Part shown: positions 18,039 through 47,925 of the stretch, in pieces
Layout of the letters: each line of letters begins with the position of its first letter
Position numbering within the stretch: position 1 is the first letter of the stretch
Source of the DNA: Leptolyngbya sp. CCY15150
Lineage (GTDB): Bacteria > Cyanobacteriota > Cyanobacteriia > RECH01
Direction of reading: 5' to 3'
Assembly: GCF_016888135.1 (NCBI RefSeq)
Contig: NZ_JACSWB010000243.1
Coordinates: 1 to 64,000, forward strand
Length of the DNA: 64,000 nucleotides
Position numbers and translations under genes: made by a program
The notes under the pieces: generated by a model
What the model saw: only the letters and a program-made list of their open reading frames with translations
Databases searched by the model: none
What the model was told of the DNA's origin: nothing

Positions 18039-19985
18039 ATGACCACGACTCCTCGTCCCACTCGTTCCATTGCCACAGCCACCCATCCCCTAGATCCCCT
18101 CTCGCCCGCAGAACTGCAGGCAGCGATCGCTATCCTGCGTCACCAATCGCCCTTAGGCAGCACCTATCGTTTTGTCAGCGTGGCGCTTCAGGAACCGCCT
18201 AAGCTAGAGGTGTTGGCCTTTACCCCAGGGCAAGCGATCGACCGCCAGGCCTTTGCCATAATCTTAGATAATGCTACCGGCTATACCTACGAAGCCGTTG
18301 TATCGATCACCCAGGATGAGGTGCTGTCTTGGACGCATATCCCCGATGTACAGCCCTGCATCATGCTGGATGAATTTTTGGCCTGCGAGAATGCGGTCAA
18401 AGCATCCCCAGACTTCCGCGCGGCGCTGAAAAAGCGCGGCATTGAGGATATGGATTTGGTGATGGTCGATCCTTGGTCGGCGGGGAACTATGGCATTGAA
18501 GAGGAACAAGGTCTACGGCTTTCCCGTGCCTTCTGCTGGGTGCGATCGGAGGCGAACGATAACGGCTATGCGCGCCCCATTGAGGGGGTTGTGCCCATGG
18601 TAGACCTCAACAAAATGGAGGTGATCCGGGTAGAAGACTATGGTGTGGTGCCGCTGCCGCCCCATCCAGGTAACTATGCGCGGGAGTATATCCCTAACTT
18701 TCGGGATGACTTGAAGCCTTTGGACATTGTGCAACCGGAAGGGCCAAGTTTTACCGTGGATGGCTACCAGGTCTCTTGGCAAAAGTGGCAGTTTCGCATC
18801 GGCTTCACGCCTCGGGAAGGATTAGTTCTCTACAATGTTAGCTATGCTGACCAAGGACGGCAGCGATCGATTCTCTACCGCGCGTCCTTGGCGGAAATGG
18901 TGGTGCCCTACAATGACCCCAGTACCCCCGCATCCAATCACTATCGCAAGAATGCCTTTGACGTCGGTGAATATGGCGTGGGGATGTTGGCTAACTCCCT
19001 GACCTTGGGCTGCGACTGTTTGGGAGTGATCCGCTATTTTGATGCTTATCTGACCAATAGCTCCGGTGATGTCTCGATCATTGAAAACGCCGTCTGTATG
19101 CATGAGGAAGATTTTGGCATTCTCTGGAAGCATACGGATTGGCGCACCAATCAAGCTGAGGTAAGGCGATCGCGTCGGTTGGTAGTGTCCTTTATCGCGA
19201 CGGTCGGCAACTATGAGTATGGATTTTTCTGGTATTTCTACCAGGATGGCAATATCGAGTATGAAGTCAAGCTGACTGGCATTCTCAACACCTCTGCTAT
19301 TGCACCGGGAGAAGAGCCAGCCTACGGCGCGTTGCTTGCACCCCAGTTAGTTGGCCATGTTCATCAACATTTCTTTAGCCTGCGCTTAGATATGATGGTA
19401 GATGGTCTATCGAATACAGTGCGAGAGGTGAATACCGAAGCACTACCCTTGGGCCCAGACAATCCCTATGGCAATGCTTGCCAGGTGACAGCAACGGTAC
19501 TGAAGACAGAACAAGAGGCCCAGCGCACCATCGATCCCTTTAAAGCACGCTACTGGAAGATTGAAAACCCCCACGTTAGTAATTGGGTAGGTAAACCAGT
19601 CGCCTACAAGCTGATGCCTGGAGATACGGTATTGCCCTTTGCTCAGCCAGAATCGAGCGTCATGCAGCGGGCCGGATTCATGGCCAAAACCCTATGGGTG
19701 ACGCCCTACGATCCGTCAGAGCGCTATTCCGCAGGTATGTATCCTAACCAACATCCTGGGGGAGAAGGGTTGCCGAAGTGGACAGAGGCAAATCGCTCCA
19801 TTGAAGATACAGATGTTGTGGTGTGGTATACATTTGGTCAACATCATATTCCCCGTCCAGAAGACTGGCCAGTCATGCCGGTATCCTATGCAGGATTTAT
19901 GCTTAAGCCTCAAGGATTCTTTGATGCAAGCCCTGCCATGGACGTGCCGCCGTCTGCCCCCAAGCATCACTGCTGTCCGGAGTAG
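18039..19985 (+). CDS. Copper-containing primary-amine oxidase
   Basis: Oxidises primary amines to aldehyde, ammonia and hydrogen peroxide using copper and the self-made cofactor topaquinone (TPQ). The TPQ-precursor motif N-Y-E-Y lies in VGNYEYGFFW, with the precursor Tyr at about residue 392. The catalytic-base Asp sits in AFDVGEYGVG (about 308). Two of the copper His ligands form the H-x-H of VHQH near residue 440, and the third lies in the C-terminal region (HHIPRPEDWPVMP). At 648 residues it matches bacterial tyramine/phenylethylamine oxidases. There is no signal peptide, so it is probably cytosolic. It stands alone. In a photoautotroph it most likely serves to obtain ammonium from amines; that use is inferred. 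Confidence 0.93.
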   Translation: MTTTPRPTRSIATATHPLDPLSPAELQAAIAILRHQSPLGSTYRFVSVALQEPPKLEVLAFTPGQAIDRQAFAIILDNATGYTYEAVVSITQDEVLSWTHIPDVQPCIMLDEFLACENAVKASPDFRAALKKRGIEDMDLVMVDPWSAGNYGIEEEQGLRLSRAFCWVRSEANDNGYARPIEGVVPMVDLNKMEVIRVEDYGVVPLPPHPGNYAREYIPNFRDDLKPLDIVQPEGPSFTVDGYQVSWQKWQFRIGFTPREGLVLYNVSYADQGRQRSILYRASLAEMVVPYNDPSTPASNHYRKNAFDVGEYGVGMLANSLTLGCDCLGVIRYFDAYLTNSSGDVSIIENAVCMHEEDFGILWKHTDWRTNQAEVRRSRRLVVSFIATVGNYEYGFFWYFYQDGNIEYEVKLTGILNTSAIAPGEEPAYGALLAPQLVGHVHQHFFSLRLDMMVDGLSNTVREVNTEALPLGPDNPYGNACQVTATVLKTEQEAQRTIDPFKARYWKIENPHVSNWVGKPVAYKLMPGDTVLPFAQPESSVMQRAGFMAKTLWVTPYDPSERYSAGMYPNQHPGGEGLPKWTEANRSIEDTDVVVWYTFGQHHIPRPEDWPVMPVSYAGFMLKPQGFFDASPAMDVPPSAPKHHCCPE

Positions 19986-27794: not shown

Positions 27795-28247
27795 CGAGCA
27801 GCCTGGAATAGAGTCTATGACGTTAAGCCATATTACCGAGGTGCGAACGTGAGTGTGGTTGGGGGCATCAGCATCAAGAAGGTGTTGGCCATCATGACGC
27901 TCGACGGTTCCATGGATGGCAATGCGTTCAAGGTTTTTATTAAGCGTTTTCTATTGCCACAGTTATGGGTTGGTGCCGTTGTGGTGATAGATAATTTGCC
28001 AGCCCATAACGTTGAAGAGGTCGAGTCATTAATTAAGTCGGTTGGTGCAAGTGTTCTGTATTTATCCTCATATTCTCCAGAAGTTAATCCCATTGAACAT
28101 TGGTGGTCACACTTGAAAGCGTTCTTGAGACTATTTTCTCCAGCTACGGTATCGGGTGTGGATAGGTTGATTAAAATAGCCCTGCAACTCATGAATCCTG
28201 AACACCTCAAACATTGGTTTACACATTGCTGCTACTGCACTTCATAA
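27795..28247 (+). pseudogene. IS630-family transposase, C-terminal remnant
   Basis: From 27795 the frame reads RAAWNRVYDVKPYYRGANVS and continues through VVGGISIKKVLAIMTLDGSM to a stop at 28245-28247; an in-frame TAG at 27792 closes it upstream. The catalytic Asp lies in VVVIDNLPAHN, and the last block, LSSYSPEVNPIEHWWSHLK, holds the IS630/DDE_3 Glu motif (PxxNPIExxWS). The first catalytic Asp and the N-terminal HTH are missing, so the copy is dead. The last residues (HCCYCTS) are typical for the family. No terminal inverted repeat is recognisable. The remnant is squeezed between the start of the Crp-type gene and an ACT-domain gene. Confidence 0.85.
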
Positions 28248-29031: not shown

Positions 29032-30117
29032 CTAGCCGTTGGTGGAAACTGATACAGGGGATGATTGAGCCTTTTGAGCAGGAACCGGCACGGTCTTAGT
29101 TGGTAGCCCTTCAATAGGACATTCCTCCGTGCCCACGGTTGGGCGAGTCAGTGCCTCTACGTTTTCCTTCACCTTCTTCGGATCAAGAACCCAGTCACGG
29201 TAGAACTGGTAGGGACATTCCGCCATGCCCTCGCTACCGTCTCCGGAGTTGATCATGCCAGTGTAGCCACGGTGTAGCAACTTGAAGAGGTGGTTCTGAG
29301 ACTGAGAGTTCTTACGGAAGTCGCGAATGGCAAACTTCGACAGCGCCGCATACTGAATGCCGTTTTCTTCCTCACCACATTCACCCAAGGTGCGGCCATC
29401 AAAGCCAACGACAGCGGAATGGCCAAAGTAGCTATAGACGCCGTCAAAACCTGCAGCATTGGCAACAGCAACGTAGACATTATTCATCCAGGCCATGGCC
29501 TTGGATACCATCACCTGCTGATCCTTAGCTGGATACATATAGCCTTGGCAACGGATAATCAGTTCTGCACCCTTCATGGTACAGTCGCGCCAGATTTCCG
29601 GATAGTTGCCGTCATCACAAATGATCAAGCTAATTTTCAGACCCTTCGGCCCATCCGAAACATAGGTGCAATTACCTGGATACCAACCTTCAATAGGCGT
29701 CCAAGGCATGATCTTGCGATACTTTTGAACAATCTCACCCTGATCGTTCATCAATATCAAGGTGTTGTAGGGTACCTTGTTAGGATGATCCTCATGGCGC
29801 TCGCCCGTGAGGGAGAAGACGCCCCATACTTTATTGCGAATACAGGCTTCTGCGAAAATATCTGTTTCTGGCCCAGGAATGGATGCCGCATTCTCCATCA
29901 TTTCCTTGGGATCATACATGATGCCGTGGGTGGAGTATTCTGGAAAGATCACCAGATCCATACCGGGCAACCCCAACTTCATCCCATCAATCATGGATGC
30001 AATGTTCTTGCAGTTGGCAAGGATCTCATCTTTGGTATGCAGCCGTGGCATTTTGTAATTGACAACTGCGACACCAACTGCATCATCGCTGGAAGAAATA
30101 TCGCCGTGGTAAGACAT
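29032..30117 (-). CDS. amiE: Aliphatic amidase (AmiE type)
   Basis: Hydrolyses short aliphatic amides to the acid and ammonia; a cytosolic nitrilase-superfamily enzyme. The catalytic triad is complete: Glu60 in FPEYST, Lys135 in QKYRKIMPW, Cys167 in [10 protein letters not shown]. The opening [20 protein letters not shown] and the blocks [13 protein letters not shown] and [20 protein letters not shown] follow the Pseudomonas AmiE pattern almost word for word over 340 residues. The 361-residue length is slightly longer because of a Pro/Thr-rich tail. The ATG at 30117 has GGAG ten bases upstream. A terminator follows. The gene is monocistronic; a nitrogen-scavenging role is inferred. The related formamidase AmiF is the main alternative. 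Confidence 0.93.
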
Positions 30118-31085
30118 GTTAGGCTCCAGTTAATGTTTCTTGCATGTACGAGCAACACATGTGAGGGCAGCACTCCTCAAATGTCGCTATTGGGCAAAAC
30201 TTACTTGCACCTAGCTATGGAGAGCAACGCCTACATCTAAGACGTTCAACGGCTTATGTTCGCATAGCAGGTGGCTTACTTTCTCAGAGAATGACAGAGT
30301 TACTAGAGCTATTGTAGGGAACATCCAAGGTAGAATTTGTATCTAGTTTTACACAAAATAGTTAAGTGCCTAACCATTTTGCGTGGTGCCCCTCCGAACA
30401 TCCTGGATGATGGCCTGGCTCTGCCTCAGAGATTCAGGAGTTGCGCAAGCCTCTGGCTGACCGCACAGCAATGCTCCCAGCAGCGCTCCTGTGCCCAGAC
30501 CTTAGTTGTCGAGAAGAGTCGCAGGAGCGACCAAGACAGGTGTCAACGCGGGAGCACTGGCACCATCAGCAACTCAAGCAGTTGACCGGGGTAGAAGCCT
30601 GTCAGTGCCGCAAAGCACGGATTCAGCGCAATCCCATTGCTTGTGCGCTGCTCGTCTGGACACGATTGAAGACGATGGCTTACCAACGTGGGCAAACGAT
30701 TTATCAAATCAAGCATGGTCTGTTGTCCAACAACTTGATAGCGCAACTCAAGCAACCGGCGATCTCAATGCTTCTTGCGTAAGTCCTGCCTTCATTCAGC
30801 ATCGCCCGAGATGTGCGTTACAGCTACGCCTAACGGTACGGTTTGATCTGAGCGATCGCAACCCATCTCCTATGCTTCGAGCAGATCAGCATGGCCAAGA
30901 CTATGCCAGTCAAACTCGCGCTAGAGACATATATCTTATCCATCTCAACGATTCATCCCTAGCCAAGGCTAGTGAGATGAGCCGGCCCATGGACATGCAT
31001 TCTCAGCAACAACTTCTCAGCAACTATTGATAACCTATCAGGGTTGTAGCACCATGCAGATCAACCCAGGGATCTAGATAGCTGC
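30118..31085. other. Gene-poor region with transposase debris
   Basis: 968 bp with no intact gene. The only recognisable part is the IS701-like transposase tail at 30546-30782. The region upstream of the amidase start (30118-30330) should hold its promoter; I see no clear NtcA site (GTAN8TAC) in it. Confidence 0.45.
30546..30782 (+). pseudogene. IS701/IS4-like transposase, C-terminal remnant
   Basis: The frame reads TREHWHHQQLKQLTGVEACQ, then CRKARIQRNPIACALLVW, then a segment ending IYQIKHGLLSNNLIAQLK, before a stop at 30780-30782. This is the conserved tail of a cyanobacterial DDE transposase group, in which a Trp-x-x-E-x-x-H-(8-10)-LKQLTGVE block is followed by ARIQRNHIACALLVW. Here that block is shortened and the catalytic Glu region is lost. 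Upstream codons in the same frame (from 30441) do not resemble a transposase. Only about 79 codons survive. Confidence 0.7.
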
Positions 31086-38685: not shown

Positions 38686-39348
38686 ATGCATAGCGGAGAT
38701 GATTTAGTCCATCATTGGCTACAAGATGTTCATCCCTCAGATTGGGAGAGATTTACCTATGTCAGCGATCGCCCTCCTTCCTCTTCACCCGAGAGTGATT
38801 CCCTAGATCAGTCCTCCAACCCCTATGTTTTGTCAAACATGGAGGTTGGCGATCGCGTTCAGATTATTGGACTAAACTGCGGAGACGCCACTGCACGCCT
38901 ACGAGGCATGGGATTTATGCCCGGGGTGGCGTTAGAGATTGTCAGCGTACTCTCTAGTGGCTCGGTAATCGTTCGCTTAGGTCAGCAAAGTATCGGGCTC
39001 AATGCACTGATGGCAGGTCAAGTTCAAGTACAGCCTATGGCAGACGGATACGATGCAACCTTAGAAACCTATCAACAGACACCCATTAGGATGAACGATA
39101 TTAAGCCTGGAAACAGCGCTAGCCTGCTAGAATCCAGAATTGGCGATCGCTTTCGGGTCATTGGTTACACCGCAGCAGCCCGCACCTATAAACGTAAACT
39201 CCTCGCCATGGGCTTAACGCCTGGTACAGAGTTCATCGTCACCCGCCATGCTCCTCTTGGTGATCCTACAGAGATTGAGGTAAGACATTTCCATCTAAGT
39301 TTACGTAAAGCAGAAGCAGAAGCATTACATATCGAACGTATTGATTAG
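38686..39348 (+). CDS. feoA: FeoA-type protein with two FeoA domains
   Basis: A 220-residue cytosolic protein needed for FeoB-driven ferrous iron uptake. Canonical FeoA is a single SH3-like domain of about 75-85 residues; here there are two. The first (about 50-122) reads MEVGDRVQIIGLNCGD, ARLRGMGFMPGVALEIV and VRLGQQSIGLNALMAGQVQV. The second (about 135-218) reads GDRFRVIGYTAAARTYKRKL, LAMGLTPGTEFIVTRHAPLG and IEVRHFHLSLRKAEAEAL. A polar 45-residue leader precedes them. feoB begins eleven bases after the stop, so the two are co-transcribed. The doubled form is found in several cyanobacteria. Confidence 0.92.
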   Translation: MHSGDDLVHHWLQDVHPSDWERFTYVSDRPPSSSPESDSLDQSSNPYVLSNMEVGDRVQIIGLNCGDATARLRGMGFMPGVALEIVSVLSSGSVIVRLGQQSIGLNALMAGQVQVQPMADGYDATLETYQQTPIRMNDIKPGNSASLLESRIGDRFRVIGYTAAARTYKRKLLAMGLTPGTEFIVTRHAPLGDPTEIEVRHFHLSLRKAEAEALHIERID

Positions 39349-39358
39349 GGAGATTATT

Positions 39359-41728
39359 ATGCGCCGTTCAATGCCCACATCCTCCTCACCGTCGCAGCTA
39401 CAAACAGACCTACATCCAGTTATTGCCTTAGTGGGTAACCCTAATTGCGGCAAAACCACGCTGTTTAATGCTCTGACAGGAGCCAATCAGCGGGTCGGCA
39501 ACTGGCCGGGCGTCACCGTTGAACGCAAGGAGGGCTTATATCGTCATCAGGATCAATCGTTTTCCATCGCTGACTTACCTGGCATCTATTCGTTAGACGT
39601 AGAAGATGCCGCTATTGGGTTAGATGAACAGGTCGCTAGAGATTATTTAATCTCCAACGCCGCAGATCTGGTCATCAACATTGTGGATGCCTCCAACCTA
39701 GAACGCAATCTCTATCTGACAACCCAAATTTTAGAGATGGGTCTTCCCATGGTGGTCGTGCTGAATATGATGGATTTAGCAGAAAAGCGAGAGCTACAAA
39801 TACGCCCCCATGAGTTAGCTCAGCGTCTAGGCTGCCAGGTTGTACCCATTTGTGCCACGCGACATCAAACGCTCTCAACCCTCAAAACAACCATTCAGGA
39901 TGCGATCGCCCATCCAGCGATTCCCTCTGCCTATGTGGCCTATCCTCCCCTAATTGAAACTGCCCTAAGCGAGATTTTATCCCTGCAAGATTTAGCCCAT
40001 CCATCAACGACACATCGGCGTTGGCTAGCTCTAGAGCTATTGCAGTATGAGGATCATCATCAAGATACGAGTCCTGATCTGCAGCGCTGTATTGTGCAGC
40101 ATCGCCATCGAATTCACCAAGTTTTGGGAGACGATCTAGACCTGTTAATTGCTGATGCTCGGTATAGTTGGATTCATCACATAGTTCAACAGGTTAAAAC
40201 CAAGGGACAGACCGTACAGCCTTATCTATCTGACCGGATTGATCGCATTGTATTAAGTCGTGCCTTGGGCATACCCATCTTTCTGGTGGTTATGTATGCC
40301 ATGTTTTTGATATCAATTAACCTCGGCGGAGCCTTTATTGACTTTTTTGATATTGCATTTGGTACCATTTTCATTGATGGCATTGCCCATGGTTTGACAT
40401 CCATTAGCGCTCCCGGTTGGCTCATCGGACTCTTGGCTGATGGCGTTGGAGGCGGTATTCAAACCACGGCAACTTTCATTCCGCAAATTGGTTTGTTGTT
40501 TATTTGCTTATCCATTTTAGAAGACTCTGGCTACCTTGCTAGGGCAGCGTTTGTCATGGATCGCTTCATGCGGCTTGTGGGATTGCCTGGCAAGTCTTTT
40601 GTGCCCATGATGGTGGGGTTTGGGTGTAACATCCCTGGAATTATGGCCACCCGCACCCTAGAAAGCCGACGCGATCGCTTAATGACGATCATGATGAATC
40701 CGTTCATGTCCTGCGGCGCTCGGTTACCTGTCTATGCTTTATTTTGTGCCGCCTTCTTTCCTAGAAATGGACAGAATATTGTTTTCATGTTGTATCTACT
40801 AGGGATTCTAGCTGCGGTATTCACCGGCCTGGTGCTCAAGCATACTCTACTCAAGGGTGAGATTTCTCCCTTTATCATGGAGCTACCGCCCTATCATATT
40901 CCTACCCTGCGTGGCGTATTGATTCGAGCCTGGGAGCGCCTGAGATCCTTTATTATCCGAGCCGGCAAGATGATTGTGATCATGGTTGTGGTATTGGGTC
41001 TGCTTAACTCGGTGGGCACCGACGGATCCGTTGGTCACCAAGATAGTCAGACATCCATGCTCAGTGCTGTCAGCCGTACCATTACTCCAGTTTTTGCGCC
41101 CATGGGCATCCAATCTGAAAACTGGCCAGCCACCGTCGGGATTTTTACGGGAGTCTTTGCGAAGGAGGTGATGGTGGGCAGCATGGATTCTTTGTATACG
41201 GAGCTGGCGAGTCAGGAATTAGGTCATGAAGAAGACGCTCCTGAGGACTTTAGTTTATGGGGTGGTCTAGGAGAAGCGATCGCTAGTATTCCAGCCAATC
41301 TGGCAGATCTCGGCAATCAGATCCTAGATCCAGTCGGCATGAACATTATGGATAGCTCGACCGACCAAACGGCAGCCGCCGAAGCTCAAGAGGTTCACTA
41401 CACCACCTTCGGACAGATGGCCCAGCGGTTTGGCAGTTCTACAGCCGCGATCGCTTACCTATTGTTTGTCTTACTGTACTTCCCCTGTGTTTCGGCAACT
41501 GCGGCGGTGTTCCGTGAAACGAATCTGGGCTGGACTATCTTTGTTGGGCTCTGGACAACTGGACTTGCCTACTGGGTGGCAGTCTTGTATTACCAAAGCA
41601 TGTCGTTAGCGCAAGCACCTGGTACAGCAATTCCTTGGATTGCCGGTCTGCTGGCTGCGATGGGCTTGGTCATCCTAGGGTTCAAGATAGCAGGCGATCG
41701 CCTAACCCCCACCAAGGCTCGTTCCTAA
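39359..41728 (+). CDS. feoB: Ferrous iron transporter FeoB
   Basis: Inner-membrane Fe2+ transporter with an N-terminal G-domain. The ATG at 39359 has AGGGAG eight bases upstream; a TTG at 39341 would overlap feoA. G motifs: G1 GNPNCGKTT (about 25-33), G2 region VGNWPGVTVER, G3 DLPG, G4 NMMD and a G5-like CATR. A helical guanine-dissociation-inhibitor domain follows (about 190-285). The membrane part runs from about 295, with two Gate motifs, including the FGCNIPGIMATRTLESRRDR block with the conserved Cys and MNPFMSCGARLPVYALF. FAKEVMVGS marks the second Gate region. At 789 residues it is of normal size. It is followed by a hairpin and feoC. Confidence 0.95.
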   Translation: MRRSMPTSSSPSQLQTDLHPVIALVGNPNCGKTTLFNALTGANQRVGNWPGVTVERKEGLYRHQDQSFSIADLPGIYSLDVEDAAIGLDEQVARDYLISNAADLVINIVDASNLERNLYLTTQILEMGLPMVVVLNMMDLAEKRELQIRPHELAQRLGCQVVPICATRHQTLSTLKTTIQDAIAHPAIPSAYVAYPPLIETALSEILSLQDLAHPSTTHRRWLALELLQYEDHHQDTSPDLQRCIVQHRHRIHQVLGDDLDLLIADARYSWIHHIVQQVKTKGQTVQPYLSDRIDRIVLSRALGIPIFLVVMYAMFLISINLGGAFIDFFDIAFGTIFIDGIAHGLTSISAPGWLIGLLADGVGGGIQTTATFIPQIGLLFICLSILEDSGYLARAAFVMDRFMRLVGLPGKSFVPMMVGFGCNIPGIMATRTLESRRDRLMTIMMNPFMSCGARLPVYALFCAAFFPRNGQNIVFMLYLLGILAAVFTGLVLKHTLLKGEISPFIMELPPYHIPTLRGVLIRAWERLRSFIIRAGKMIVIMVVVLGLLNSVGTDGSVGHQDSQTSMLSAVSRTITPVFAPMGIQSENWPATVGIFTGVFAKEVMVGSMDSLYTELASQELGHEEDAPEDFSLWGGLGEAIASIPANLADLGNQILDPVGMNIMDSSTDQTAAAEAQEVHYTTFGQMAQRFGSSTAAIAYLLFVLLYFPCVSATAAVFRETNLGWTIFVGLWTTGLAYWVAVLYYQSMSLAQAPGTAIPWIAGLLAAMGLVILGFKIAGDRLTPTKARS

Positions 41729-41740
41729 CGCCACAACATT

Positions 41741-41771
41741 TGTGGGCTAGGGGTCAGTCCTCCAGCCCACA
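41741..41771 (+). terminator. Hairpin between feoB and feoC
   Basis: TGTGGGCT (41741-41748) pairs with AGCCCACA (41764-41771) across a 15-base loop; a weak T-rich run follows (TTAGTTTATTTC). It could end or attenuate transcription before feoC, or stabilise the upstream message. Confidence 0.55.
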
Positions 41772-41836
41772 GGTTAGTTTATTTCGTCAACACATTTTTC
41801 TCATACCACTTTTTATCCATAAGGACAGTAGATGAT

Positions 41837-42055
41837 ATGCTTTTAACTGAACTACAGCGCTATCTACACCAGCATCCGCGCTCATCGTTACAGGAACTGT
41901 CCGAGAATTTACAGGTGGATGCAGATGCATTACGAGGAATGCTGAGTCATCTGATTCGCAAAGGCCGCGTGCATCAACTCAAGACTAAACCCTGCACCCA
42001 CTGCAGCAGTTGCAACCCAGAAACCCTAGAATTCTATGAATGGATCGGCCGCTAA
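41837..42055 (+). CDS. feoC: FeoC-like small regulator
   Basis: A 72-residue winged-helix protein of the FeoC type: LLTELQRYLHQHPRSSLQEL, SENLQVDADALRGMLSHLIR and KGRVHQL form the HTH. The tail CTHCSSC gives a C-x2-C-x2-C cluster that in FeoC proteins can bind an iron-sulfur cluster. FeoC is thought to protect FeoB from proteolysis or tune the operon in response to iron or oxygen. The gene is 108 bp downstream of feoB on the same strand, completing a feoABC set. AAGGACAG lies about ten bases before the ATG. The stop codon is at the edge of a repeat element. Confidence 0.85.
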   Translation: MLLTELQRYLHQHPRSSLQELSENLQVDADALRGMLSHLIRKGRVHQLKTKPCTHCSSCNPETLEFYEWIGR

Positions 42056-42085
42056 GCTCATATCAAATCAAGCTCATATCAAATC
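42054..42085. repeat. 16-bp tandem duplication at the element's left end
   Basis: AAGCTCATATCAAATC at 42054-42069 is repeated exactly at 42070-42085. The second copy includes the left end of the 141-bp element; the first overlaps the feoC stop codon. Confidence 0.7.
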
Positions 42086-42216
42086 CAGTTGGAGACGCTG
42101 TTTATTCAAGGCGTTGGCATTCCCCAGGTATCTGTAACTCCCTGGGCAAGGGGGCGGCGAATTGGGGGATCGAATGCAGGATGGTACCGTTATGACCATT
42201 CAACCAGATTTGATAT
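42076..42216. repeat. 141-bp miniature element, copy 4
   Basis: The best preserved ends of the family: ATATCAAATC (42076-42085) and GATTTGATAT (42207-42216), an exact 10-bp inverted repeat. The interior CCCAGGTATCTGTAACTCCC and GGGGGATCGAATGCAGGAT match the other copies. It lies between the convergent feoC and permease genes. Confidence 0.8.
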
Positions 42217-42236
42217 CATTTAGTATCCCCAAATAT

Positions 42237-43283
42237 CTAAAATCCGCTGATCACGCCATAGAGCGAACCAAAAAGTACTGATCCTATTATGGCAAAGCTT
42301 AGATAAGCAAAGAAGACAGGACGACGGGCCAAGGCAAAAACAGCCATCATCGCGGGAATGGATGTAGCACCTCCGGCTAATAAGAATGCCATACCTGCAC
42401 CGGGGTTCATGCCTTGCTGAATCAGTCGCCCCACTAAGGGCAGAGCCGCATAGCCGTTGAGATAAGCAGGAATACCCACAGCAGTGGCGGTGATCACGGA
42501 GCCTAGGCCTCCATCGCCAGCGATCGCTCCGATCCATCCATCCGGCACATAGGCCACCATGAGACTTTCGAGCAAAAACGCTAGAGCCAACCATTTTCCG
42601 AGGAAAATAGCACTGTTACGGATGCCATTTCCAAACCGTTTCTGCCGCTCAGGATCCGACCAAAACCGCCACATGACCGGCTTGGGATTGCGGATCTTGC
42701 TGCCCACACAGCCGCCATTGCCCACACCGGATCGTAGCGGATTTTGTAGGGCTGGGGTTAAGGGTTTGATTCGCATCAGCGCCCAAATACCCCAACCGCC
42801 TAGTAGTCCCATCCCCAAAGCTGCCAGAGTTTTGGCGATCGCAAACGGCATTCCCAACGTCCCCGCCGTCAGAAAGAACATGGAAGGATCCATCAGGGGT
42901 GAGGAGAGCCAAAAGGCCATCACCGCCGCTGTCGGCACGCCCATAGACAGCAGCGCGGCAATGAGGGGAATCACACCGCAGGAGCAAAAGGGGGACAGAG
43001 CCCCAATCACGGCAGCAATCGGCACCATGGTCACCACCCGTCCCTGAAACGCTTTGGCAATCAGGGCATCGGCTCCCGTGGCCTGGCTATAGGCAGCGAT
43101 CGCCACGGAGATCAGCAGGAAGGGCGCAACCGACCATAAACTGCTGACCATAAACTCCACGCTAGCGATCGCCTGGGATGGCACGATGGCTAGCAATCCT
43201 AGAATCAGCAGGGCGATCGCCCCCAGCACAACATCTAGGTGTTTCATCTGGCGATACATGCGGGTCAAGGGCGTTACGGTCAT
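42237..43283 (-). CDS. ArsP/DUF318-type permease
   Basis: An inner-membrane permease of the PF03773 group (two-fold repeat, about ten helices), which includes ArsP exporters of organic arsenicals. The motif FCSCGVIPLIAALLSMGVP (about residues 98-117) carries the Cys pair seen in the family, and TATAVGIPAYLNGYAALPLVGRL is the matching block of the second half. Between the halves is a hydrophilic loop (about 180-215) with RSGVGNGGCVGSKIRN. The start at 43283 has GGAG seven bases upstream. An ArsR-type repressor gene precedes it on the same strand 112 bp away, so expression is probably metal or metalloid controlled. The substrate is not settled. Confidence 0.82.
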   Translation of the reverse strand: MTVTPLTRMYRQMKHLDVVLGAIALLILGLLAIVPSQAIASVEFMVSSLWSVAPFLLISVAIAAYSQATGADALIAKAFQGRVVTMVPIAAVIGALSPFCSCGVIPLIAALLSMGVPTAAVMAFWLSSPLMDPSMFFLTAGTLGMPFAIAKTLAALGMGLLGGWGIWALMRIKPLTPALQNPLRSGVGNGGCVGSKIRNPKPVMWRFWSDPERQKRFGNGIRNSAIFLGKWLALAFLLESLMVAYVPDGWIGAIAGDGGLGSVITATAVGIPAYLNGYAALPLVGRLIQQGMNPGAGMAFLLAGGATSIPAMMAVFALARRPVFFAYLSFAIIGSVLFGSLYGVISGF

Positions 43284-43395
43284 GGATGTCTCCTAGGGTA
43301 AAATTTGGTATTTCTACAACTATCAAAATAAATAGTCCACGGTGAGTAGGGCAGCGATCGCTACCTCAGGCAAGAGAATCGTGGCTCAAGATAGT

Positions 43396-43725
43396 TTAGT
43401 CATCTAACTCCACAACATGGTTACGCGTACAGCATTCCTCAAATAAGAAATCGATCAGTTGCTTGAGCACCTGAGGCTGCACGGCATACCAAATCCACTG
43501 CCGATCCTTGGTGGCGGTTACCACACCCACCTGCCGTAGTTTTTCAAGATGGTGCGACAGGGTAGAGGCGGTAATCTCCAACTCTCGCTGGATCTCGCCG
43601 GCAGGCAATCCTTGAGGGTGGGCAGATAGCAACAGCCGCACAATATTCAGCCGCGAGGGTTGCCCCAGGGCTGCAAAGGTGGCCGCGATATCGGTCGTGG
43701 ACAGTGAGCCGGACTTGGTTTCCAT
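43396..43725 (-). CDS. ArsR/SmtB-family metal-responsive regulator
   Basis: From the ATG at 43725 the protein has 109 residues, the usual size; an in-frame ATG at 43812 would add 29 residues not found in the family. A winged HTH covers residues about 15-90: IAATFAALGQPSRLNIVRLL, PAGEIQRELEITASTLSHHL, EKLRQVGVVTATKDRQWIWYA. The pair Cys-Cys in the tail (FEECCTRNHVVELDD) plus nearby His could bind metal or metalloid near the C-terminus; the classic alpha-3 ELCVCD site is absent. It is followed by the permease it presumably represses. A likely operator would lie in the AT-rich 43285-43345 stretch. Confidence 0.85.
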   Translation of the reverse strand: METKSGSLSTTDIAATFAALGQPSRLNIVRLLLSAHPQGLPAGEIQRELEITASTLSHHLEKLRQVGVVTATKDRQWIWYAVQPQVLKQLIDFLFEECCTRNHVVELDD

Positions 43726-43892
43726 AATTCGATAATCGTCGAAATGAATGAACTTGTCAACACCTTGGTCATACGTAGGTAGACTCAATTGAGGTGTCAG
43801 CAAAATTGGCATGAGTATTTGGCATTAGTATTTGGCATTAGTATTAAGAAGTAGATTGACAAGATGAACCCTGCTGATAGCGTCTGAATGCC

Positions 43893-46796
43893 ATGCCCAT
43901 TTATCCAGCTACCAAAATTGTCAAAGATCGGCGGGACTACAATACTTGGGTGGCCACTGAAACCCTAGAAGACTATGCCCTCCGCTTTGCGCCCACCTCA
44001 TTTCGGAAATGGTCAGAACTCTTAGTTGCGAATACGGCCAATGGTGGTCTCTCCTTTTTGGCCTTGGAAGCTATTGGCGGATCGTTGGCCATTCGCTATG
44101 GGTTCGTCAACTCATGTTGGGCGATCGCTGTCGTCGGCATGATCATTTTCCTTACCGGCCTCCCGATCGCTTATTATGCCGCTCGATACAACGTAGATAT
44201 TGATTTGCTCACCCGAGGAGCAGGTTTTGGCTATATCGGGTCAACGATGACCTCCTTGATCTATGCCTCGTTTACCTTTATCTTCTTTGCCATCGAAGCT
44301 GCCATCATGGCCCAGGCTCTAGAACTCTATCTTCATCTACCGTTGCCTGTTGGCTACATTATCTGTTCTGTCTCGATTATCCCCTTAGTCTTTTTCGGCA
44401 TGACGCTGCTCAATCAACTGCAGCTATGGACTCAGCCCATTTGGTTGATTCTCATCCTATTGCCCTATGCCTGCGTGTTGTATAAGGAACCCAGTGCCTT
44501 TACCAACTGGACACATTTTACAGGGCAACTGAGAGCATCCACCTTTGATCCCCTACTCTTTGGATCTGCGGCTACCGTATCGTTTGCATTAATTGTGCAG
44601 ATTGGTGAACAGGTTGACTTTTTGCGATTTCTGCCAGATAAGCAGGATAGTAATCGACGCGCTTGGTGGCTAGCCGTGCTCATGTCTGGCCCAGGCTGGA
44701 TCGTGATTGGCTGTCTGAAACAGTTAGGAGGAGCATTCCTGGCTTCGTTGGCGATCGCCCATGGCGTCAGTTTTGCCAAAGCTCATGAACCTACTCAAAT
44801 GTATCTTGTTGGGTTTGAGTATGTGTTTTCCAATCCAGACGTGGTGTTAGCCGTCACCATTCTATTTGTCATCCTTTCCCAGGTCAAAATTAATGTTACC
44901 AATGCCTATGCTGGTTCCTTAGCTTGGTCTAACTTTTTCTCGCGACTGACCCATAGCCATCCTGGACGCGTCGTGTGGCTGGTGTTTAATGTGGCGATCG
45001 CCCTTGTCCTTATGGAGTTCGGTATCTTTTCAACCCTAGAGGTCGTCTTGGGGCTCTATGCCAACGTGGCGATCGCTTGGGTGGGGGCCTTGGTTGCCGA
45101 TTTGGTGATTAATAAGCCCCTAGGCTTAAGTCCGCGCCACATCGAGTTTAAGCGCGCCCATCTTTATAACTTTAATCCTGTGGGCTGTGGATCGGCCCTG
45201 ATTGCTTCCCTCGTCTCGATCGCCGCCTTTGTGGGCGCTTTTGGCCCAGAAGCTAAGGCCTTTGCGTCATTCATTGCCCTGGGTTTATCCTTGCTGCTGT
45301 CGCCAGCGATCGCCCTCCTCACCCGTGGTAAGTATTATTTAGCCCGAGAGGATAGCTATGAAACCACTGGACAGCCCATCAATTGCTGTATCTGTGAGCA
45401 AGAGTATGAGCCCCAGGATATGTCGTTTTGTCCCGTCTATGCTGATGCCATCTGTTCTCTCTGCTGTAGTTTAGATATGCGCTGTCATGACGTGTGTAAA
45501 ACCCCATTTGTTCAGTTGTCTGACCAGCTTGAACGCGCACAACCCGCTGTGTCAAACCCGGATGAGGCACTGAGGCTGGAGGAACGCGATCGCCAATCAC
45601 CCTCACCCTCTCCCCCCATTCATCTCCCGGATCAGACCCTCCTCGGACGCTTTCTTCAGACTAAGCTATCGCCCCAGTTGGGCATGAAATTACTGAAATA
45701 CCTAGCCATATTTCTGGTATTATCTGTCTTGGTGGGAAGTATTTTAGGACTGGTGTACTATCAGCAGGTGATGAGCGATCCAACCCTCTCACCCAGCACC
45801 GTGCAGCGTCTCACCTCAACCTTGATTGAAGTTGCGGCTACCTTTTGGGTGCTCATTGGCATTGGCGCATGGTGGTTAGTGCTGACTGAAGAAAGTCGGC
45901 AGCTTGCCCAAGACGAGCTAGATAAGCAAAACCTTCAGCTTCAGCAAGAAGTACAGGAGCGTCAGTTGGCAGAAGTACAGCTACAGGAAAAAGCCCAGCA
46001 GCTCGAACAAACCCTGCGGAATTTGCAGCAAGCCGAAGCCCAACTGATTCAGACTGAGAAAATGGCCGCCTTGGGAGGGTTGGTGGCAGGGATTGCCCAT
46101 GAAATTAACACCCCGATTGGGATTGGGGTCACGGCGGCGTCATTTTTGATGGAAAAAACAACGGCCTTTGCCGACGCCTTTAAGAACGGCACCATGAAGC
46201 GATCGGATCTGCAAAAGTTTATCGATATTGCCGAACAAAGTAGCGGCATGACCTTGACCAATCTCAATCGTGCTGCCCAGCTCATCCAGAGCTTTAAGCA
46301 GGTGGCGGTGGATCAATCCAGCGAATCGAAGCGCGTCTTTCACCTGGTTGTTTATCTAGAAGAGATTTTGCTACAGCTTAGTCCTAAACTCGCCCTCACG
46401 CCCCATCGCGTTGACGTCAAGGGCGATCGCCATCTGAGTCTCCATAGCTATCCGGGAGCATTTTCCCAAATTGTGACTAATTTGGTGATCAATTCCCTCC
46501 TCCATGCCTATGGGCCGGATGACCAAGGGCATATTTGTTTAACCGTTGTGCAAACAGAACGCGGTATTGTATTGGACTATACAGATGACGGCTATGGGAT
46601 TCCGCCCGAGAATTTGGGCAAAATATTTGAACCCTTCTTCACCACAAAACGAGGTCAGGGCGGCAGCGGTTTGGGGCTACATATCGTGTACAATCTCGTG
46701 ACTCAAAAGTTAGGTGGCACCATTCAATGTGAAAGTCAACTGGCGGTTGGTACAACCTTTCGCATTGAGTTGCCTAACCCATCCACTCAACCTTAG
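43893..46796 (+). CDS. NCS1-type permease fused to a sensor histidine kinase
   Basis: Residues about 30-480 form a complete NCS1 nucleobase-cation symporter-like domain with some twelve helices (ESxxLL-like SELLVANTANGGLSFLALEA at the start, GAGFGYIGSTMTSLIYASFT in the middle). A Cys-rich module follows at 497-536, with nine Cys in a CCxC-11x-C-7x-CxxCC-5x-C-3x-C pattern. Two further helices (about 600-620, 640-665) lead to a coiled coil and the kinase: H-box GIAHEINTP with His736, N-box VTNLVINSLLHAYG, and G-boxes DDGYGIP and GGSGLGLHIV. So a transporter body serves as sensor, as in the CbrA plan where the transporter is of the SLC5 type. The partner regulator gene starts 4 bp after the stop. 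The ligand is probably a nucleobase or related compound; that is inferred from the fold. Confidence 0.92.
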   Translation: MPIYPATKIVKDRRDYNTWVATETLEDYALRFAPTSFRKWSELLVANTANGGLSFLALEAIGGSLAIRYGFVNSCWAIAVVGMIIFLTGLPIAYYAARYNVDIDLLTRGAGFGYIGSTMTSLIYASFTFIFFAIEAAIMAQALELYLHLPLPVGYIICSVSIIPLVFFGMTLLNQLQLWTQPIWLILILLPYACVLYKEPSAFTNWTHFTGQLRASTFDPLLFGSAATVSFALIVQIGEQVDFLRFLPDKQDSNRRAWWLAVLMSGPGWIVIGCLKQLGGAFLASLAIAHGVSFAKAHEPTQMYLVGFEYVFSNPDVVLAVTILFVILSQVKINVTNAYAGSLAWSNFFSRLTHSHPGRVVWLVFNVAIALVLMEFGIFSTLEVVLGLYANVAIAWVGALVADLVINKPLGLSPRHIEFKRAHLYNFNPVGCGSALIASLVSIAAFVGAFGPEAKAFASFIALGLSLLLSPAIALLTRGKYYLAREDSYETTGQPINCCICEQEYEPQDMSFCPVYADAICSLCCSLDMRCHDVCKTPFVQLSDQLERAQPAVSNPDEALRLEERDRQSPSPSPPIHLPDQTLLGRFLQTKLSPQLGMKLLKYLAIFLVLSVLVGSILGLVYYQQVMSDPTLSPSTVQRLTSTLIEVAATFWVLIGIGAWWLVLTEESRQLAQDELDKQNLQLQQEVQERQLAEVQLQEKAQQLEQTLRNLQQAEAQLIQTEKMAALGGLVAGIAHEINTPIGIGVTAASFLMEKTTAFADAFKNGTMKRSDLQKFIDIAEQSSGMTLTNLNRAAQLIQSFKQVAVDQSSESKRVFHLVVYLEEILLQLSPKLALTPHRVDVKGDRHLSLHSYPGAFSQIVTNLVINSLLHAYGPDDQGHICLTVVQTERGIVLDYTDDGYGIPPENLGKIFEPFFTTKRGQGGSGLGLHIVYNLVTQKLGGTIQCESQLAVGTTFRIELPNPSTQP

Positions 46797-46800
46797 ATTT

Positions 46801-47925
46801 ATGGAACCGTCTATGTCCAAAAAAGCGTATGATGCCTTGACTGGTGCCCAACAGGATGAGCTTATGTATGATCTTGAGGATGATGAACTTCAATTTGCCG
46901 AAGAAACAGAATTACAATCGCCAGAAAAGAGCTGGAAGATCTTGATTGTGGATGACGAGGCGGAGGTGCACCACGTCACCAAACTAGCCCTCGCAGATGT
47001 CACCTTTGAGAATCGCTCTCTCGCGTTTATGAGTGCCTATTCTGGGGAAGAAGCAAAGCAGGTGATTCGTGCCCATCCCGATACGGCGATCATCTTTTTG
47101 GATGTGGTCATGGAAACGGAAAACGCCGGCTTAGACGTCATTCAGTTTGTACGCGAGGAGTTAGAAAACTCGGCGGTGCGGATTATTCTACGCACTGGAC
47201 AGCCCGGCCAAGCGCCGGAAACGGTGGTGTCGGTAAATTATGGTATCGACGAATACAGAACCAAAACAGAACTTACATCACAAAAGCTATTTATTACCGT
47301 GGTGACGGCCTTAAGAACCTTTTCCATCTTGATGCAAGAACGCGAGAAAATACAGCAGCTAGAGCGATCGCTGCGTCTATTCCAGCATGTTCAGCTCCAG
47401 CCCGAGCAGCGGGAGAAAATTGAAACTCTCGGTCAACTGGTCACTGAGGTCACCCAAGATATCATCAATTCCCCCAGCGGCGGAGCCCTATCGATGATGT
47501 CTAAACTAACGCGGCTAGCGCGAGTTGTGCTGCGAATTACGGATGAGCAATCGGCGAAACTTGGTTTGTCTCAAAGTAAACTATCGGTGCTCATGTATCT
47601 CAATAGTGAGCCAGACTTTTGTTCTAGTCCATCCTTGCTGGCGAAACACTGCGGCATTTCCCGAGCTGCCATGACGGGTTTGCTAGACGGCTTGGAGCAA
47701 GATCACTATATTGAGCGCGATAGTCATCCATCGGATCGCCGCGCCTTGATGGTCAAACTCACCCCGAAGGGACAACAGTTTTTCGATTGGATTGCTCTAG
47801 AGGAGGGGGCTCAACTATCTACGCTCATGGATGCCCTCGATGATACTGAACGGCAGAAACTATTTGATCTCGCTACCCACGCACTCAAACTTGTTGAAAA
47901 GAAAACCGAGCAGGCTGATCCATAA
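46801..47925 (+). CDS. Response regulator with MarR-type output domain
   Basis: I start at the ATG at 46801, 4 bp after the kinase stop; 46813 is possible. Residues 47-175 form a receiver: ILIVDDEAEVH, phospho-acceptor Asp101 in IIFLDVVMETENAGLDVI, and the closing IDEYRTKTELTSQKLF with the conserved Lys. This receiver is of the sort found with DUF3369 outputs (long METENAGL loop). After a helical linker (about 180-250) comes a MarR-like winged helix (about 255-370): LGLSQSKLSVLMYL, LLAKHCGISRAAMTGLLDGLEQ, YIERDSHPSDRRALMVKLTPKG. Receiver plus MarR is a rare pairing. Together with the upstream fusion it forms a two-component system. Target genes are unknown. Confidence 0.92.
   Translation: MEPSMSKKAYDALTGAQQDELMYDLEDDELQFAEETELQSPEKSWKILIVDDEAEVHHVTKLALADVTFENRSLAFMSAYSGEEAKQVIRAHPDTAIIFLDVVMETENAGLDVIQFVREELENSAVRIILRTGQPGQAPETVVSVNYGIDEYRTKTELTSQKLFITVVTALRTFSILMQEREKIQQLERSLRLFQHVQLQPEQREKIETLGQLVTEVTQDIINSPSGGALSMMSKLTRLARVVLRITDEQSAKLGLSQSKLSVLMYLNSEPDFCSSPSLLAKHCGISRAAMTGLLDGLEQDHYIERDSHPSDRRALMVKLTPKGQQFFDWIALEEGAQLSTLMDALDDTERQKLFDLATHALKLVEKKTEQADP

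Follow-up and report, generated by a model that had tools for sequence, protein, structure and literature searches.

Transporter-histidine kinases, in which a complete transporter body serves as the sensory part of the kinase, have been described in the two-component systems CbrA/CbrB, CrbS/CrbR and RpuS/RpuR, all with a transporter of the SLC5 family (PMC7096432, PMC13022988, PMC5715377, PMC9100948). Here, we describe a comparable pair of genes in 64,000 nucleotides of the cyanobacterium Leptolyngbya sp. CCY15150 (RefSeq assembly GCF_016888135.1, contig NZ_JACSWB010000243.1, positions 1 to 64,000; hereafter the window). The first gene (43893-46796, + strand) encodes a sensor, or "transceptor", of 967 amino acids that joins an NCS1-like transporter body, a Cys-rich module and a histidine kinase, as judged from its open reading frame (ORF), motifs and HATPase_c match (PF02518, E=1.1e-23). 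The second (46801-47925, + strand) encodes a response regulator of 374 amino acids, counted from the ATG at 46801, in which a receiver is joined to a MarR domain, as judged from the ORF, Pfam matches and invariant residues. Together the two proteins probably form a two-component system that senses urea, short-chain amides such as formamide and acetamide, or both, and that, together with NtcA, activates the aliphatic amidase gene amiE when nitrogen is short. The two reading frames, the 4-nt gap between them, His736, the N- and G-boxes, the nine cysteines, the two extra helices and Asp101 all lie where an earlier note on this DNA, made from the sequence without database searches, had placed them, and the likeness that it saw to CbrA-type transporter-kinases holds.

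The system would work like CbrA-type transporter-kinases but is built differently, from a body that is NCS1-like, a Cys module and an output of the receiver-MarR kind. As in CbrA, CrbS and RpuS, a whole transporter body forms the sensory part of a histidine kinase, and nutrient use is what is controlled. Those proteins combine an SLC5 body with a STAC four-helix bundle, whereas the present sensor appears to combine an NCS1-like body with a module of eight conserved cysteines, carries two extra helices before the kinase and is paired with a receiver-MarR output. Their ligands are histidine, acetate or pyruvate, and the ligand here would be urea or amides. NCS1 would thus be a second transporter family added to the few known transporter-kinases, and a receiver-MarR regulator with a putative operator would be an unusual type of output. 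In the open-licence literature, we found no paper describing an NCS1-kinase fusion or a receiver-MarR response regulator, and the excerpts used here of the papers on the Methylophilus fmd cluster and the Bradyrhizobium amide-linked urt-type cluster of ATP-binding cassette (ABC) genes mention no transporter-kinase (PMC10781810, PMC3098086). Now that such a sensor has a likely class of ligand, a proposed target gene and a short putative operator, signalling by a transporter could be tested directly in a defined promoter.

Relatives of the sensor were taken as the 80 most similar loci of a collection scan, several of which are fragments of metagenome-assembled genomes, and the families recognised among their neighbours are aliphatic amidase (PRK13286), formamidase FmdA, FmdB-type zinc ribbon and UrtA-E-like ABC components. 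Context was counted by tblastn, because ORFs in high-GC loci came from a simple script, and proteobacterial loci of at least 14 kb were counted. Amide/urea genes occur in the fetched flanks of 40 of the 42 proteobacterial loci (fmdA in 31/42). In cyanobacteria, 7/9 loci that carry this kinase type have such genes, as against 0/6 loci carrying another kinase. All seven loci with a receiver-MarR partner have them, the two misses being loci with a receiver-kinase protein. Annotated Azospirillum and Burkholderia records show fmdB-fmdA-urtEDCBA beside the sensor and a LuxR-type regulator, and an aliphatic amidase or nitrilase is also close by; an annotated Paraburkholderia record agrees, and a single proteobacterial record, from Tistrella, has the sensor without amide/urea neighbours. 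Homologues consisting of the transporter part alone are followed by fmdA-fmdB in two cyanobacteria. In Leptolyngbya sp. CCY15150 itself, urtA-E-like genes, fmdA and fmdB lie on a separate contig, with urease-type accessory genes next to the urt-like genes (by eye, weak similarity). In a survey of cyanobacterial genomes, a search with the regulator matches 20 of 291 genomes (two of the matches look like the receiver-kinase variant), the sensor is present in all 20, and amiE occurs in 16/20 of them compared with 36/291 overall (hypergeometric 3e-13, kinship ignored).

This context of urea and short-chain amide use, together with a likely target, amiE, in the same window, speaks against the nucleobase-like sensing that the earlier note had proposed. 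A sensor of nucleobases, or of hydantoin or allantoin, would fit the nearest solved folds, CodB (cytosine) and Mhp1 (hydantoin), and a stand-alone homologue in Klebsiella is annotated as "cytosine permease". That homologue, however, closes a urease cluster; the neighbours found to be conserved encode urea/amide transporters and amidases, with no nucleobase genes among them; and CodB and Mhp1 share only some 15-19% identity with the sensor. All of this makes such a ligand highly improbable.

The proposed target amiE (29032-30117, - strand; NCBIfam PRK13286, E=3.9e-214, above cut-off) is 88% identical to the amiE that adjoins the pair in one relative (L014). An expectation-maximisation motif search of nine amiE upstream regions returned the palindrome AaATAGTTAAg..cTTAACTATTt, which scored 119, whereas shuffled sequences reached 35-37. 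Its copy in the window, ATAGTTAAG-NN-CTTAACTAT (30358-30377, matching at 16/18 positions), is the sole site with at most 2 mismatches in the 5.75 Mb genome. Sequence matches further identify an NtcA-type box, GTAAAACTAGATAC (30339-30352, - strand), 5 bp from the palindrome, and a -10-like TACAAT (30311-30316, - strand) 22 bp after the box. Across genomes this composite element reads palindrome, gap, GTAN8TAC, N22, TAnnnT; the N22 spacing is constant, and the gap between palindrome and box is 3-13 bp, being 5 bp in 13/16. GTAN8TAC-N~22-TAN3T is the form of an NtcA-activated promoter, and the NtcA-type box is a candidate for a second input to amiE, where the earlier note had suggested that phosphate and a ligand could both act on the MarR protein.

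From the motif search, the genome scan and co-presence with the regulator, we infer that the palindrome is the operator of the receiver-MarR protein. Among amiE genes with a located start (four further amiE loci, whose start was not found, are unscored), a palindrome of at least 16/18 lies within 700 nt upstream in 12/14 regulator genomes and in 0/12 genomes without the receiver-MarR gene (Fisher 9.5e-6, kinship ignored). Ten of these 12 are sensorless, one has the sensor only and one has the receiver-kinase variant; their best score, 13/18, is inside the shuffled range. Because a class-wide scan for the palindrome alone was noisy (74/291 genomes, with a busy reversed control), only palindromes near amide genes were used. 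The composite element also stands before a DUF3318 gene that precedes a stand-alone transporter (L122 and L121/L105), and L019 has a palindrome with 16/18 matches in the interval that separates its fmdA and kinase genes. The palindrome might instead belong to another transcription factor co-inherited with the pair, given that its link to the regulator is a correlation among related genomes; this is fairly unlikely, since amiE genes without the regulator, some of them from a family-level group (f15) that also holds regulator genomes, lack the palindrome and since the element also precedes a different gene set in relatives. We rejected a role of the palindrome in terminating transcription of the regulator gene, as in this genome it lies about 16 kb from that gene and its distance from the NtcA-type box is maintained.

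Urea could also be the sole signal, with amiE and fmdA mere nitrogen-scavenging neighbours. The urt-type ABC genes found throughout, the urease-type accessory genes of this genome and the urease-linked stand-alone homologue would all fit a urea sensor. We regard this as rather unlikely, in that in most genomes the element stands before an aliphatic amidase gene, fmdA is as frequent in proteobacterial loci as given above, and the fmd genes of Methylophilus methylotrophus respond to formamide as well as urea (PMC10781810). A published analysis had already argued that in Bradyrhizobium the urt-like cluster next to fmdA and amiE carries an amide, not urea (PMC3098086).

In the mechanism that we propose for a urea and amide sensor, the ligand would bind to or pass through the NCS1-like transporter body, and the resulting change would reach the kinase by way of the Cys module, the pair of extra helices and a coiled coil. 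His736 would be phosphorylated and pass its phosphate to Asp101 of the regulator, and the phosphorylated receiver-MarR protein would bind the palindrome as a pathway-specific activator alongside NtcA, such that amiE is made only when amide is present and nitrogen is short; the promoter would then act as an AND gate for amide or urea on the one hand and nitrogen limitation on the other. Nitrate assimilation is controlled in this way by NtcA plus a pathway-specific activator, NtcB, of the LysR type. The promoter logic proposed here, a general nitrogen signal combined with a specific inducer, is similar, except that the specific factor would be a receiver-MarR response regulator instead of a LysR-type protein.

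With the -10-like hexamer set at -12 to -7, the palindrome is centred at about -63.5 and the NtcA-type box at about -41.5, two helical turns apart. With the palindrome on the upstream side, this spacing suggests that the regulator would act with NtcA as an activator, and the predicted promoter layout favours activation over repression. The receiver-MarR protein of the same system may instead be a repressor that is released by phosphorylation or ligand, as many MarR proteins repress; since the palindrome precedes the NtcA-type box, two helical turns from the box centre, and does not fall within the predicted -35 to +1 region, we hold this to be somewhat improbable.

Several observations weigh against activation of amiE by the pair. 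In the window the pair is 14 kb away from amiE, and its neighbours are ArsR/ArsP, FeoB and FecCD-type genes. One regulator genome (G213) has no site within 700 nt of amiE, with a perfect site further upstream; another (G281) has no better site than one with 14/18 matches, which adjoins the kinase gene on a different contig; and in a third (G241, 82% complete), which has the regulator, no linked palindrome was found. The regulator genomes are related and the tests ignore phylogeny, although group f15 holds genomes of both kinds. In addition, no convincing palindrome was found on the urt-like/fmdA contig of this genome (best 13/18, chance level). Motifs sought in front of the urt-like operon scored little higher than those in shuffled sequences; we therefore claim no shared operator for it, and regulation of the urt-like/fmdA genes by the palindrome in this genome is not supported.

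The transporter body occupies residues 1-486 of the sensor (43893-45350, + strand). Pfam searches with the 967-amino-acid protein return HATPase_c and a weak HisKA; residues 1-471 have no match even at E<=10, PF02133 included, and two stand-alone relatives have no match to PF02133 or other Pfam entries at E<=1. With no Pfam match for the membrane part, the assignment to NCS1 required fold evidence and a bridging homologue. An AlphaFold2 (AF2) model of residues 1-560, built from 49 sequences, reached a predicted template modelling score (pTM) of 0.84, and the top five PDB structures found with it by Foldseek are all Mhp1 or CodB. By VIA-align, CodB aligns at 397/400 residues with Z 33.1 and Mhp1 with Z 28.2; the top matches are all NCS1 (Z 33.1, 28.2, 27.9, 25.0), the best non-NCS1 row has Z 23.9, and SLC5-type structures stand further down the fold list (Z ~20-22). 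The bridging homologue is a urease-linked Klebsiella permease (L255) that matches PF02133 with 38.1 bits (cut-off 23.5) and shares 44% identity with the sensor over 540 columns, part of the Cys module included (E=4e-160). When solved structures were searched by sequence, neither the transporter part nor the Cys module nor the A1 profile gave a match. An NCS1-like body is therefore supported by the modelled fold and transitive homology, as the earlier note had held, in the absence of a direct profile match. The fold covers nearly all of CodB, while the low identity to CodB and Mhp1, the added Cys module, the fused kinase and the amide/urea gene context set the sensor apart from both.

The Cys-rich module (residues 487-540; 45351-45512, + strand) was delimited by invariant columns of the A1 alignment and also forms the C-terminus of stand-alone ORFs of 546-554 amino acids. 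Its nine cysteines lie at residues 498-535, and eight are invariant in 49 relatives. Since stand-alone transporters also end in this module, it belongs to the transporter family and is not an addition to the kinase. No Pfam domain was found in residues 470-599, for which no comparison aimed at STAC was run. Hydropathy places the two extra hydrophobic helices in residues 603-665 (45699-45887, + strand), at about 603-621 and 647-665. The kinase core (HisKA/HATPase, residues 726-965; 46068-46787, + strand), defined by Pfam, motifs and alignment of relatives, has His736, an N-box near 867 and G-boxes at 898 and 924. Across 20 kinase relatives, the positions checked in the H, N, F and G boxes vary little or not at all, in line with the complete kinase that had been described.

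For the regulator, Pfam searches gave MarR_2 (PF12802) at 37.0 bits (cut-off 27) and MarR (PF01047) at 35.6 bits (cut-off 24.6), which bears out the receiver-MarR output. The domain search proposed in the earlier note thus recovered MarR and HATPase_c and left the membrane part unmatched; the receiver (Response_reg) scored 29.9 bits against a cut-off of 30.2 at full length, and passed the cut-off when trimmed and in one relative. All 13 regulators compared have the acidic pocket, phospho-acceptor Asp, Thr and Lys of a receiver (D51, D52, D101, T132, K155). They also share RAAMTGLLD in the recognition-helix region and DRRAL in the wing, as would be expected if the 13 had an operator in common. 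An AF2 model of this protein was poor (13 sequences, predicted local distance difference test score 58, pTM 0.40) and was not used.

Among the relatives retained by the scan, the sensor shares 61-92% identity over residues 1-551 with proteins of cyanobacteria, Pseudomonas, Bradyrhizobium, Variovorax and methylotrophs. Identity remains above 60% in the transporter part, whereas in the kinase core it is at least 69% in cyanobacteria of the same kinase type and 21-34% in nearly all others. The transporter-Cys module is partnered with this kinase type and a receiver-MarR protein in one group of cyanobacteria. In two loci (L020 and L037) this kinase type adjoins a receiver-kinase protein instead (L020:10972-12486, L037:8607-10187), which has a receiver of the same type but a histidine kinase in the place of MarR. 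Six cyanobacterial relatives with other kinases (L024, L025, L026, L028, L031, L033) have no receiver-MarR partner seen adjoining and no amide genes nearby. In proteobacteria the module stands on hybrid kinases, mostly followed by a LuxR-type regulator, and in one Campylobacterales contig (L069:7986-11618) it is fused to PAS-GGDEF-EAL, with no kinase. It also occurs alone, as the stand-alone protein already mentioned. In a tree the stand-alone forms make up one group and the sensors with this kinase type fall nearly together (2 changes). The adjacent pair is conserved in relatives, with the MarR pairing confined to one cyanobacterial group and the sensor widespread with other outputs. On balance, we lean towards a broader reading in which the NCS1-Cys part is a sensory module for urea and small amides in cyanobacteria and proteobacteria, used with varied outputs or as a plain transporter, and in which the cyanobacterial receiver-MarR protein forms with NtcA a promoter that needs both amide and nitrogen shortage.

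A sensor homologue is also present in 342 Klebsiella plasmid records (~52% identity in most of those listed), under the labels "ATP-binding protein", "response regulator" or "ArcB"; in the one record inspected, urtEDCBA and a formamidase adjoin it. The membrane part of the sensor matches no Pfam domain, and the sensor bears uninformative names in many records, hospital Klebsiella plasmids included.

Some further features were seen near these genes. Immediately upstream of the pair, the window encodes FeoB, an ArsP-type permease and an ArsR-type regulator (39341-43812), which sets it apart from those relatives whose pair adjoins amide genes. Between the predicted amiE promoter and the amiE start is a leader of nearly 190 nt (30118-30310), longer in several relatives; Rfam searches gave zero matches for it, as for the whole window and 14 amiE loci. 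An ORF close to amiE (27849-28247, + strand) reads by eye as a transposase fragment, and a primary-amine oxidase gene (18039-19985, + strand; PRK11504, E=1.4e-302) may encode another nitrogen-scavenging enzyme. In L121, L122, L123 and L124 the stand-alone transporter gene has a DUF3318-type gene close to it, which in L121 and L122 is on the same strand and upstream. Downstream of amiE in several cyanobacteria (L013:14109-15650, L015:13582-15129, L017 and L021) are genes for Tubulin/FtsZ-like proteins, with weak PF00091 matches below cut-off, and some of these cyanobacteria have a second, related gene there.

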